Shown in pieces: positions 19,592-40,540 of a DNA stretch of 64,000 nt; position 1 is the first letter of the stretch; each line of letters begins with the position of its first letter. Both the position numbers and the translations under genes were made by a program. The DNA comes from Actinomycetota bacterium. GTDB lineage: Bacteria; Actinomycetota; Acidimicrobiia; Acidimicrobiales; MedAcidi-G1. The DNA lies in contig JACNLA010000028.1 of NCBI GenBank assembly GCA_014381745.1, forward strand, positions 248,001-312,000, given 5' to 3'. The notes beneath the pieces were generated by a model. That model did no database searches. It was not told the DNA's origin and saw only the letters and a list, made by a program, of their open reading frames with translations.

Positions 19592-19646
19592 GACTCCGGC
19601 GTCTTGTTCTGCTTTAATGGCTCATCGGCCGAGGTGAGGGACCCCC

Positions 19647-20090
19647 GTGGAACTACCTAGAAAAACGGGGATCTTGGTACTGTCGCTCTTGCTGTTTGCT
19701 GTCTCCTGTGCGGCCGGCGACCCGGTGGACGATTCGACTATCCCACCCTCCAATGCCTCGCCTGCGGCAACCTCCCAGGCGGCAGTTGCTGCACTCACCT
19801 CACCTGAACCATCGATTCCTGCCTCAACCACCGCCCCGGCAGAGGACGATGAGGAGCCCACGGCCGAGGATTCCGTTTCCGACGAGGTGCTCTCGGCCTT
19901 AGTGGATGAGGAGAGAACTGAGGCACCCTCGGAGGAGAACGGGGACGGGCACGAAGTTGAGACACCAGCAGAATCAGCGGAGCAGGGATCTTATGAAGGG
20001 CCACCGGTGGCCGATCTCCTAGGAATTCAGGCACCACAGTTCCAGGAGTGCCTCACCTACTACATCGCCCAGGTCGCCTGGCAGGCCTGA
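19647..20090 (+). CDS. Lipoprotein with Cys-bounded repeat, 5' piece of a frameshifted gene
   Basis: This 147-codon frame starts with a lipoprotein signal peptide (ILVLSLLLFAVSC, lipid cysteine at residue 21). A long acidic Pro/Ser/Thr/Glu-rich stretch follows, then the first half of a Cys-bounded repeat beginning QFQECL at residue 135. It ends at a TGA just after AWQA. The next frame over, open at the same place, supplies the second half of that repeat. Counting from Cys to Cys gives 95 bases, where the second repeat has 96. The simplest reading is one gene, 19647-21673, with one base missing near 20086-20091 (GCAGGCCTGAAG). It could be a real inactivating mutation, programmed frameshifting, or a sequence error. 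No function is known for the N-terminal part. Confidence 0.75.
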   Translation: MELPRKTGILVLSLLLFAVSCAAGDPVDDSTIPPSNASPAATSQAAVAALTSPEPSIPASTTAPAEDDEEPTAEDSVSDEVLSALVDEERTEAPSEENGDGHEVETPAESAEQGSYEGPPVADLLGIQAPQFQECLTYYIAQVAWQA

Positions 20091-21673
20091 AGCTCGGAAC
20101 GGATCAGCCATCCAGCGAGGAGGTAGAGATGGTCCTCTACTGCCAGGCAAGGTTCGCCTCGCCGGACGGACCCGGTGAGCTGGACGGGGGAGGTGACACC
20201 GCTCAGCCCGGTGGCGGAAACATCTTCACCTCAGGTCCGCCTGAACAGCAGGCCTGCCTGCGCGACGCCCTCGGAGATGCCGTGTTCGAGGCCATAGCAT
20301 CCGGGGAGCGCGTGCCCACCGAGGCCGACAACAGGGCGATGAACCCCTGTGTCGGAGGCGAGCCGGATCGCGGGGAGCCAGCCCCTGACAATCAGATACC
20401 AGGCAGCGCCAGCCCCCCATCCGATGAGAGCCCCCCGCCCGGTGGAGGCGGGAGTCTGGGCAGCCAGCCCCCCGAGATGCAGGACTGCCTACGGGGCGCA
20501 CTTGGAGACGCTCTGTTCGATGCAATCCTGTCCGGTTCCCAGGCTCCAACTTCCGCCCAGAACGCAACCATGGATGAAGCTTGTGGCTACGGCGGTCCCG
20601 GGCCAACCGCCCGCCTGCCAATTGGCGACTTTCCACTAGCCGATAGCCCACCGCCGCCCGAACGCAACTACCCGAAGGAGTCAGTGTCGTTCTCAGAGGC
20701 TCGCTTCATCCGAATGCTCGAGCTCCTCCGCGACGACCAGTACGTGGCAGACCTGCTGGCCGGGGGCTTCAACACCTGGGGCATTCAGGCCACCTACACG
20801 GTTGGAGACAACGGGAGCATTGAATGGCTGAACGTTTCGCAGTTGGTCGAGGCCATTTCGGTCGCTCGTAGGGCTGGCCTTGCCGTGAGGCTTGTACCTG
20901 CGCACTTCGAGGAGATGTTCAAAGACAGCCTGCCAGAGGAGAACCTCGCGGCCCTTTATCAGAACCGCCTGGTTGCAGCTCTGGAGCTGGCAGGTCTTGC
21001 CGAACGGCTGAACGTTGAGTACTTCACCCCGATTGGCGAGGCAGAGGGCCAACTGGATGATGGAGCATTCGGACCTGGTCTCGCAACCGATCTCGACATG
21101 AGCAATTCTGCCAGCATCCTGGATCCGACTCTTGACCCGAATCTCGTAAACCGCGTCTCGCTCATTAGCGAGTGGCTGGAGAACATGGCTCCAAGCCTCC
21201 GAGACGCGTTCTCCGGTCAACTCGTCGCACACTTCGGTACCCCACACACCGGGTACCGCGTACCGAGCTGCGACATCGTCGGGACGACACTTGACCACTA
21301 TGAAATAGAGGACCTTGATGTCTTTCGCTCCATGACTTCAGCAGGGCTCAACTCACTCGTAACCTCGGCCAGCGCCAGTGGAATCGGCTGGCGGGTGGTT
21401 GAGACCTACTTCTACTGGAGCGAGATCGCCGATCCCTACGCACAGGACGACCTCAATAGCATCGAGGCAGGCGACGTCGCAGAGTGGGAGGATCAGGAAC
21501 TGGTCGCACGCCTCCGGGACCTGCAGGACGACTACTTCAGGATTGCCCTTGAGGAGTACGGAGCCCTCTCGGGTGGCCGCGGCTTCGACTCCGGAGGCTG
21601 GATCAACCCGGGTGTGGAGATCGGTGGTTCGCCTGCCGAGGCTGTGATACGGGAGTTCTTCGCAGGCCGCTGA
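20048..21673 (+). CDS. Cys-repeat secreted protein with glycoside-hydrolase-like barrel, 3' piece of a frameshifted gene
   Basis: This frame is open from a GTG at 20048, but that is probably not a true start, since no signal peptide or ribosome-binding site precedes it. It continues the repeat begun in the upstream frame. Two further Cys-bounded units follow (residues 70-101, starting CLRDALGDAVFEAI; residues 147-179, starting CLRGALGDALFDAI), separated by Pro/Gly-rich linkers. From about residue 215 a globular domain looks like a (beta/alpha)8 glycosidase. It has FNTWGIQATY, then AGLAVRLVP, an acidic pair in TPIGEAE (E331/E333) and a late Glu in RVVETYFYW (E452). This spacing suits a clan GH-A acid/base and nucleophile, but no specific family is recognised. 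The hydrolase idea is inference; the repeats are directly visible. Confidence 0.75.
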   Translation: MPHLLHRPGRLAGLKLGTDQPSSEEVEMVLYCQARFASPDGPGELDGGGDTAQPGGGNIFTSGPPEQQACLRDALGDAVFEAIASGERVPTEADNRAMNPCVGGEPDRGEPAPDNQIPGSASPPSDESPPPGGGGSLGSQPPEMQDCLRGALGDALFDAILSGSQAPTSAQNATMDEACGYGGPGPTARLPIGDFPLADSPPPPERNYPKESVSFSEARFIRMLELLRDDQYVADLLAGGFNTWGIQATYTVGDNGSIEWLNVSQLVEAISVARRAGLAVRLVPAHFEEMFKDSLPEENLAALYQNRLVAALELAGLAERLNVEYFTPIGEAEGQLDDGAFGPGLATDLDMSNSASILDPTLDPNLVNRVSLISEWLENMAPSLRDAFSGQLVAHFGTPHTGYRVPSCDIVGTTLDHYEIEDLDVFRSMTSAGLNSLVTSASASGIGWRVVETYFYWSEIADPYAQDDLNSIEAGDVAEWEDQELVARLRDLQDDYFRIALEEYGALSGGRGFDSGGWINPGVEIGGSPAEAVIREFFAGR

Positions 21674-21682
21674 GCGGCAGGG

Positions 21683-38112: not shown

Positions 38113-39471
38113 GAGCGTGTCGAGCACCACCTCAAGATCTTCGACGGTCGTCCGAGGGTTGACCATGCAGAATCGCAGAGCAGGGGCACCGTCAACCGAG
38201 GTGGGCACCACCAGTGCCGAACCCTCGGTCAGGAGGGAGTCTGACCAGCTCGCATACTGCTCCAGGGTCCACCCGGTCCTGCGGAACGCCAGAATTGAGA
38301 GGGTCGGTTCCATGATCAGGTCAAGGTGGGGTGCCGCTTCGATGAGGGCGGCTCCAGCGCGGGTCACAGCGAGGGTCTGTTCGACCGCCTCGGAATAGGA
38401 GCGGGTGCCGTGGACGGTGAGCGAGAACCAGAACGGAAGTCCTCGGGGCCTGCGGCTGAGATGGTGTGCATAGTCGCTGGGGTTCCATTCGCCTCGCTCG
38501 TTGATCGACTCGAGGTAGCCGGCCTCCTGCGTGTGGGCGCGCCGTGCGTCGTCGGGGTCCCTGTACAACAGGGCCGCGCAGTCGTACGGAGCGAAGAGCC
38601 ACTTGTGCGGGTCCACGATCAGGGAGTCGCAGTGCTCTATCCCGTTGAAGAGGTGGCGAATCGACCCGGCGGCGAGGCCGGCTGCGCCGTAGGCACCGTC
38701 GACGTGGAACCAGAGAGAGTTTGCGGCGGCAACCGAGGCCACCTCGTCGAGGGCGTCGACCACACCAAGGTTGGTCGTTCCGGAGGTGGCGACTACAGCG
38801 AACACCTCGGTTCCCTCGGGACGTGTCGCGACTGCTTCGGCCACGGCATCACCCCGGAGCCTCCTGTCCGGGCCTGTCGGGGCAAGGAGGACGTCGACGT
38901 CCATCACCCGTGCCGCCGAGCTCACCGAGGAGTGGGCATCCTCTGAGGCCACCACTGCCCATCGGCCTGGCCTCTTATGGGTGCCGCCGCGACGTCTGAC
39001 GGCCTTGTCCCGGGCTGCCACCAGAGCCGAGAGGTTTCCCATGGTTCCGCCGGAGACGAAGCAGCCTCCGGCAGTCTCGGGCATGCCGGCCAGGTCGGCT
39101 ATCCATCTCAGGGCCTGGTTCTCGGCGTAGATGGCACCGGCGCCGTCGAACCACCAGGTGGCCGACATCGCCGATGCACCCACAACAAGGTCAAAGAGAA
39201 CAGCAGCATCTGTGGGAGCGCACGGAACCCACGCGAAGTAGCGGGGATGGTCGACAGAGAGGCAGGCTGGCGCCAGGTGGTCAGCGAAGATGGCGAGTGC
39301 CGCAGCCCCGCCCAACCCCTCCTCTGTGATGGTCATTCCGACAGCCTCGCCAAGCCGGTCGGCGGCCACGGGCGTGTCTATAGGTGGCTCCATGCGAATC
39401 CGGTCGAGCGCATACTCGAACACTGACTGCGCCAACTCGTCGGTCGCCTCGCTGTATTCATGCATACCCAT
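38107..39471 (-). CDS. Pyridoxal phosphate-dependent group II decarboxylase
   Basis: The 454-residue enzyme belongs to the family of aromatic-amino-acid, glutamate and diaminobutyrate decarboxylases. The cofactor lysine is in DPHKWLF, with the partner aspartate in WFHVDGAYGAAG, and SGGTMGNLSALVAARDKA binds the phosphate. The substrate cannot be decided from sequence. I start at ATG 39471, which has a GGGAGG ribosome-binding site eight bases upstream; another ATG is two codons further in. It lies between tig and tRNA-Gly and is not obviously part of either operon. Confidence 0.93.
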   Translation of the reverse strand: MGMHEYSEATDELAQSVFEYALDRIRMEPPIDTPVAADRLGEAVGMTITEEGLGGAAALAIFADHLAPACLSVDHPRYFAWVPCAPTDAAVLFDLVVGASAMSATWWFDGAGAIYAENQALRWIADLAGMPETAGGCFVSGGTMGNLSALVAARDKAVRRRGGTHKRPGRWAVVASEDAHSSVSSAARVMDVDVLLAPTGPDRRLRGDAVAEAVATRPEGTEVFAVVATSGTTNLGVVDALDEVASVAAANSLWFHVDGAYGAAGLAAGSIRHLFNGIEHCDSLIVDPHKWLFAPYDCAALLYRDPDDARRAHTQEAGYLESINERGEWNPSDYAHHLSRRPRGLPFWFSLTVHGTRSYSEAVEQTLAVTRAGAALIEAAPHLDLIMEPTLSILAFRRTGWTLEQYASWSDSLLTEGSALVVPTSVDGAPALRFCMVNPRTTVEDLEVVLDTLA

Positions 39472-39554
39472 TGCTTCCACCTCCCGGCGGGAGGCTACGC
39501 ACATGCCGACCGGACGGCTCGCCTAGCGTGCTCCCGGATACGCTTTCTGGCGCC

Positions 39555-39626
39555 GCGGGTGTAGTTCAACGGCTAGAACCTCAGCCTTCCAAGCTGATGA
39601 TGAGGGTTCGATTCCCTTCACCCGCT
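39555..39626 (+). tRNA. tRNA-Gly (anticodon TCC)
   Basis: The acceptor GCGGGTG pairs with CACCCGC, and the anticodon loop CTTCCAA gives anticodon TCC. The T-loop is TTCGATT, the discriminator base is T, and CCA is not encoded. It stands alone between the decarboxylase and phosphodiesterase genes. Confidence 0.96.
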
Positions 39627-39673
39627 CATTTGCCGCAGCTGTCAGCGGCGAGCCGGTCGCCGGGATTCCGCCT

Positions 39674-40540
39674 GTGGCCCGTATCCTCGACCCGGTGCTG
39701 ATCGCCCAGATCTCCGACTGCCATATCCGCGACAGCGTGGGCATGTTCGGTGGCCTCGTGGACACCTCAGAGACCCTGGCGGGAGTTGTTCGTCACCTCA
39801 ACGACCTGAACCCTGCGCCCGACCTCGTGTTGGCAACGGGTGATCTGACCGACGACGGCACTGAAATCCAGTATTCGATGTTTCTAGACCTCGTGTCCGA
39901 TCTGGCGATTCCTCTCCTTCCCCTACCTGGTAACCACGACGTGGGCGATGCCTTCCGGGCGGCTTTTGCCGACCGCCTACCGGACACGGTCGCCGAGGGC
40001 CACTGCAGCTACGTGGTCGACGACCACCCTGTCAGGCTGGTCGGGCTTGACACCCTGATACCCGGTCGACACGACGGCCGCTTCGACGAACGGCACGAGG
40101 AATGGCTGGACCGCGTGCTGCACGCGGCACCCGAACGACCGACCCTGGTCTTCACCCATTTCCCACCGTTCACGTCGGGCCTGACGTTCATGGACCTGTC
40201 AGGCCTGGACGGTGCCGACCGTCTGCGGGACGTCCTGAAACGCCACCCTCAGGTGAAGCTCCTGGTTGCCGGCCACCTCCACCGGCCCATTCAGACCACG
40301 ATCGGCTCGACCCTTGTCTCGGTGTGTCCCTCCACGGGCAACCAACTGGGCCTCGAGCTTGACCCCATGAGCGGATCCGCTGTCGACGAGCCGCCGGCAT
40401 ACCAGTTGCACAACTGGGACGGCCAGAACTTCGTTACCCACACGGCGACGGTGTGGGCGGGAAAGCGGATGGACCTCTCAGAGTTCGTCGCCGAGGTGCA
40501 CCGGCGTTCGGCCGCCGGCGAGGGCTCGCCGAAGTCCTGA
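39674..40540 (+). CDS. Metallophosphoesterase, CpdA/class III phosphodiesterase type
   Basis: The 288-residue protein shows the full two-metal phosphoesterase set: ISDCHI, GDLTDDG, LPGNHDVG, VFTHFPPF and VAGHLHRP. This pattern matches the class III cyclic nucleotide phosphodiesterase family (CpdA/Rv0805), though such enzymes often prefer other phosphodiesters. The usual DxH is DCH here. The start is a GTG; a second GTG seven codons later is possible. It converges on the RamB-type gene. Confidence 0.88.
   Translation: MARILDPVLIAQISDCHIRDSVGMFGGLVDTSETLAGVVRHLNDLNPAPDLVLATGDLTDDGTEIQYSMFLDLVSDLAIPLLPLPGNHDVGDAFRAAFADRLPDTVAEGHCSYVVDDHPVRLVGLDTLIPGRHDGRFDERHEEWLDRVLHAAPERPTLVFTHFPPFTSGLTFMDLSGLDGADRLRDVLKRHPQVKLLVAGHLHRPIQTTIGSTLVSVCPSTGNQLGLELDPMSGSAVDEPPAYQLHNWDGQNFVTHTATVWAGKRMDLSEFVAEVHRRSAAGEGSPKS

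Follow-up and report, generated by a model that had tools for sequence, protein, structure and literature searches.

Two overlapping reading frames in the window (the whole stretch of 64,000 nucleotides that was analysed) are almost certainly the parts of one lipoprotein gene, broken by a single frameshift within the first of its cysteine-bounded (Cys) units (Table 1). An initial annotation of this DNA had proposed that a one-base frameshift within a repeat splits a lipoprotein gene, and this proposal is supported by homologues of the same architecture that are encoded in single ORFs (L057, L058 and L059). We consider it probable that the gene encoded a surface glycosidase lipoprotein, and that it was recently broken by a frameshift that would lie in the organism's own DNA. 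The organism appears to be marine, judging from four Acidimicrobiales MAG records, of which one derives from Tara Red Sea samples; its species was represented by one genome, as assembly sequence, in all the comparisons made here.

Table 1. Coordinates of the split gene, its parts and its surroundings, as positions of the window.
Feature	Position	Strand	Remarks
Stretch between dgt and rpmA	19592..21682	.	2.1 kb here, ~10-80 bp in same-genus genomes
First reading frame	19647..20090	+	GTG start, 147 aa, ends TGA; signal, stalk and 13 residues of Cys unit 1
Second reading frame	20048..21673	+	Remainder of unit 1, then units 2 and 3 and the C-terminal barrel
Cys unit 1	20049..20143	+	95 bases Cys to Cys inclusive; interrupted by frame change
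Cys unit 2	20255..20350	+	96 bases Cys to Cys inclusive, 32 residues
Cys unit 3	20486..20584	+	99 bases Cys to Cys inclusive, 33 residues
Clan GH-A-like barrel domain	20640..21670	+	Barrels of the intact homologues are ~25% identical to it
Putative catalytic Glu in PIGEAE	21029-21046	+	Alignment to homologues
Putative catalytic Glu in WSEIAD	21416-21433	+	Gapped alignment
Short palindrome around GCCGCTGAGCGGC	21661..21677	.	Beside rpmA; contains last codons and stop of second frame

The first frame carries an N-terminal signal peptide with a lipobox cysteine, as is characteristic of bacterial lipoproteins. The signal peptide reads MELPRKTGILVLSLLLFAVSC, with the lipobox Cys codon at 19707-19709, and is typical of lipoproteins, as called by eye and pattern alone and without a signal-peptide predictor. 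It is followed by an acidic, Ser/Thr/Pro/Ala-rich stalk of 95 residues, with 25 Asp/Glu against one Lys/Arg. The second frame lies at -1 relative to the first, which it overlaps from approximately 19997 to 20090, and is 541 aa long counted from its GTG and 558 aa from stop to stop. As judged from GC content by codon position, the coding frame switches within 20040-20100: the low-GC position, which corresponds to the second codon position, moves between the frames over this interval, indicating that both stretches are coding and that the frame changes there. Promoter and terminator scans found nothing.

Inclusive counting from Cys to Cys confirmed the lengths and coordinates that the initial annotation had given for the three units. 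For comparison, we built a repeat profile from 18 units of this and related genomes, leaving out unit 1, and the two parts of unit 1 were searched either separately or as a read-through with X at the junction, with one read-through bearing a residue in this place as a scoring control. The joined halves scored 8.4 bits, against 0.8 and 3.8 bits separately, and this score was reached in 18 of 20,000 trials in which the same residues were shuffled, such that the read-through unit 1 exceeds more than 99.9% of shuffles. With a residue placed at the junction, the score was 9.8 bits (matched by 9 of 20,000 shuffles). Units 2 and 3 matched the profile, which includes both of them, with E-values of 9.5e-17 and 7.3e-15. 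Unit 1 is therefore diverged, and the weakest of the three, but its match is above chance. Across the A5 units (L002-L017, L060-L080), the consensus reads roughly LRxCLIxxxGQxxxEELAxGRQPxPxExxAMGPCMG.

The full-length, single-ORF barrel homologues L057 (540 aa), L058 (558 aa) and L059 (523 aa), all from Acidimicrobiales MAGs, each contain a lipobox, a stalk, one or two Cys units and the same C-terminal domain as the window gene. The initial annotation had called for a search for intact proteins with a signal peptide, three Cys repeats and a barrel; these elements do occur together in one ORF, with one or two units and not three. The window gene has a disabling lesion where intact homologues stay open, as expected of an interrupted coding sequence, those homologues not being its orthologues. 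The Cys-repeat lipoproteins of UBA2974, SAT127, RS454 and cluster2_bin.79 combine a lipobox, a Thr/Ser-rich stalk, one or two Cys units and a barrel in one ORF, and differ from the window gene in being intact, and in their Thr-rich stalks, where that of the window is rich in Asp/Glu. Their barrels are ~75% identical among themselves and ~25% identical to that of the window, indicating that no true orthologue of the gene was seen.

The Cys unit was identified in 11 of 48 genomes from the family, spread over two of six genera, and among the 396 genomes of a phylum sample it was found in this genome only. It had no match in Pfam or NCBIfam, and we found no published account of, or name for, a lipoprotein family of this kind in the literature. 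In the copies for which the N-terminus lies on the contig, the unit is preceded by a lipobox signal and a low-complexity stalk, in agreement with the earlier reading of the product as a lipoprotein with Cys repeats, and the window gene shares the lipobox, the stalk and units of ~30-33 residues that define the family. The outer domain that follows the Cys unit is an NHL-like propeller in another contig of the same genome (C20) and in G006, G019, G023 and G027; another propeller-like type, identified by eye, in G004 and G023; and a barrel in UBA2974, SAT127, RS454, cluster2_bin.79 and the genome's own contig C2. Thus, a putative Cys-bounded spacer module of uncultured Acidimicrobiales carries different outer domains, a GH113-like barrel among them. 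The break itself is ordinary; of more interest is the small lipoprotein family, for which neither Pfam nor NCBIfam has a model.

We investigated the identity of the C-terminal domain, for which the initial annotation's guess of a barrel agrees with a GH113-like barrel modelled on a homologue. By sequence, the window barrel matched nothing in Pfam, NCBIfam or the PDB, a homologue profile gave two chance matches only against PDB sequences, and a search of 397 genomes of the order with the window barrel recovered itself only. A scan of genome contigs with this barrel as the sole query likewise gave no relative. The window domain modelled alone, with no alignment, gave a pLDDT of 36. In contrast, the barrel of L058, modelled from five aligned rows that included the window domain, gave a mean pLDDT of 67 and a pTM of 0.73, and its nearest structures are GH113 beta-mannanases (AaManA, 4cd6/4cd8/3civ; BaMan113A, 7dv7), with a Foldseek E-value of 9.6e-10 and a Z of 14.4 over 249 residues at 4.8 A (Z for 4cd6). 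The model supports a (beta/alpha)8 barrel, closest to the GH113 beta-mannanases of clan GH-A, with other clan GH-A enzymes close behind, so that the family within the clan is not fixed by these matches. The window domain matches a joint barrel profile, which contains it, with an E-value of 7e-97.

A (beta/alpha)8 barrel with a Glu/Glu pair for catalysis is common to the mannanases of GH5, GH26 and GH113 (PMC9032380). As in GH113 and clan GH-A, the L058 model has one Glu just after strand 4 and another in strand 7, which correspond in the alignment to PIGE and WSE of the window, and a more distant relative (G391) conserves the pair as well. The strand-4 Glu aligns consistently (PISE/PVSE/PIGE), and the strand-7 Glu of the window depends on a gapped alignment. 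Unlike in GH113, the barrel is joined to a lipobox, a stalk and Cys units, the identity is 10-14% over the structural match, and the window gene is broken; as Pfam and NCBIfam gave no match and the PDB no credible one by sequence, we describe the domain as one that "works like" GH113 rather than as a member of it. Since the homologue barrel models nearest to GH113, with the Glu pair conserved, the window product was likely, by its fold, formerly a surface-tethered clan GH-A glycosidase.

We propose that the original product consisted of a lipobox anchor, followed by the acidic Ser/Thr/Pro/Ala stalk, three Cys units of 32-33 residues and the GH113-like clan GH-A barrel. The Cys units may have acted as a spacer or display module, and the fold of the barrel and its conserved pair of Glu suggest extracellular cleavage of a beta-linked polysaccharide as its probable role. 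A single-base frameshift in the first Cys unit would then have recently inactivated this gene, at a site that is empty in relatives. The present output would be a lipoprotein stub of 147 residues, with no complete repeats and no enzyme, and the barrel may now at best be a leaderless cytoplasmic fragment. Gene callers would report two unrelated "hypothetical proteins" where one gene existed.

The gene occupies the convergent dgt-rpmA junction, the length of which varies among the compared genomes, and which contains a whole extra gene only here. In four genomes of the same genus (G001, G003, G005 and G006), ~10-80 bases separate dgt and rpmA, and no lipoprotein gene lies between the two; they are also close in G015 and G009, of the same family, and the junction of G015 is empty. 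The comparison of the locus among relatives, which the initial annotation had recommended, could thus be made at dgt-rpmA, and it returned empty sites, with the gene in this genome only. Given these empty sites in relatives, this lineage probably acquired the gene there; losses in all the others are possible but would take more events. The palindrome beside rpmA is partly present at the empty sites of G001 and G003. In a survey of prokaryotic pseudogenes, these were enriched for putative horizontal transfers (PMC522871). The window gene resembles pseudogenes from recently gained genes in that survey, in that it is found at this site in this genome only and is disabled by a frameshift, and differs from them in having a single lesion.

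Four causes of the break had been put forward: decay, phase variation, a frameshifting event and an assembly error. Decay is the most likely of these, an assembly error is possible, and neither phase variation nor a frameshifting event finds support in the sequence. We judge that a recent, real inactivation is quite probable, as opposed to an error of the record. An artefact of assembly, consensus or mixed strains, by which a base was lost from the record of a gene that is intact in the organism, seems unlikely. The contig comes from a 2.19 Mb assembly of 44 contigs, as might suit such an artefact, and the gene is otherwise free of lesions over 2 kb, with both putative catalytic residues retained, so that decay would have to be very recent. 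However, an audit of the non-overlapping conserved ORFs of the same contig, with G003 as reference, identified no frameshift in 146 ORFs (165,693 aligned bases, or 166 kb), indicating that the assembly is not generally frameshifted; the audited genes, being conserved, are expected to show fewer real lesions anyway. The longest homopolymer at the junction, furthermore, is of two bases, and a second member of this accessory family, on contig C2, is also broken, by an in-frame stop.

It is very unlikely that real inactivation is to be replaced by two separately translated products, the second being a leaderless protein that starts at ATG 20129. The sequence GAGGAGGTAGAG lies just upstream of this ATG, which is preceded by a ribosome-binding-like GGAGG, but GAGGAG...ATG encodes Glu-Glu...Met, residues that other Cys units have in corresponding positions, so that its coding role accounts for the GGAGG. 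A second protein would moreover have no signal peptide, although Cys units occur in lipoproteins, and in none of the relatives seen did the halves form separate genes. The initial annotation had named just these two observations, separate intact halves in relatives or a signal peptide on the second frame, as contrary to a single gene, and neither was found.

Programmed -1 ribosomal frameshifting is hardly credible as a means of joining the frames: their -1 relation and overlap would suit it, but the overlap contains no X XXY YYZ heptamer, the intact homologues require no shift, and the junction falls within a repeat, not at a domain boundary. Surface proteins are frequent targets of phase variation, yet a phase-variable on/off switch is just as improbable here, as the junction has no simple-sequence tract (homopolymer runs of 5-6 occur only elsewhere in the gene) and a scan found no invertible or inverted repeats flanking the gene.

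We additionally identified a paralogous lipoprotein on contig C2 (L053 / L016; G000:C2, 21972-24209), which consists of a propeller-like domain, one Cys unit and a barrel. It has an in-frame TAG within the barrel, and the same frame is open beyond it, at 60-64% identity to intact barrels. Two of the three members in the genome are therefore broken, which suggests that the function is being lost, the number being small and noticed post hoc. Counterparts of the C2 gene in the same genus (L098 in G005, L099 in G006 and L100 in G003) keep the propeller-like domain and have a different C-terminal half, indicating that the outer domain has been exchanged; this half resembles an alpha/beta-hydrolase by eye, with HGGAF and GGSAG motifs.

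A more speculative reading, which we regard as improbable, is that the Cys-unit lipoproteins form a strain-variable surface display system, with a shared anchor and spacer and exchangeable outer domains that are gained, swapped and repeatedly inactivated. The outer domains of such a system would be the propeller types and the divergent barrels, the pressure on it might come, for example, from phage or grazers, and the frameshift would represent one among several off-states that recur in the population.

Elsewhere on the contig, the in-frame stops flagged by the audit and read out proved to be start-codon over-extensions, non-coding frames or tRNA; the few other flagged matches included a spurious-looking antisense ORF of 797 aa and some early stops relative to G005 and G006. 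A candidate second frameshift at window positions 39384-40540, seen as a two-frame match, was rejected: a tRNA-Gly (39555-39627) lies beside a phosphoesterase-like gene, and the over-long single ORF of G005 spans both. The tRNA-Gly is directly upstream of the phosphoesterase-like gene, and an automatic audit may mistake an over-long ORF that crosses a tRNA for a frameshift.
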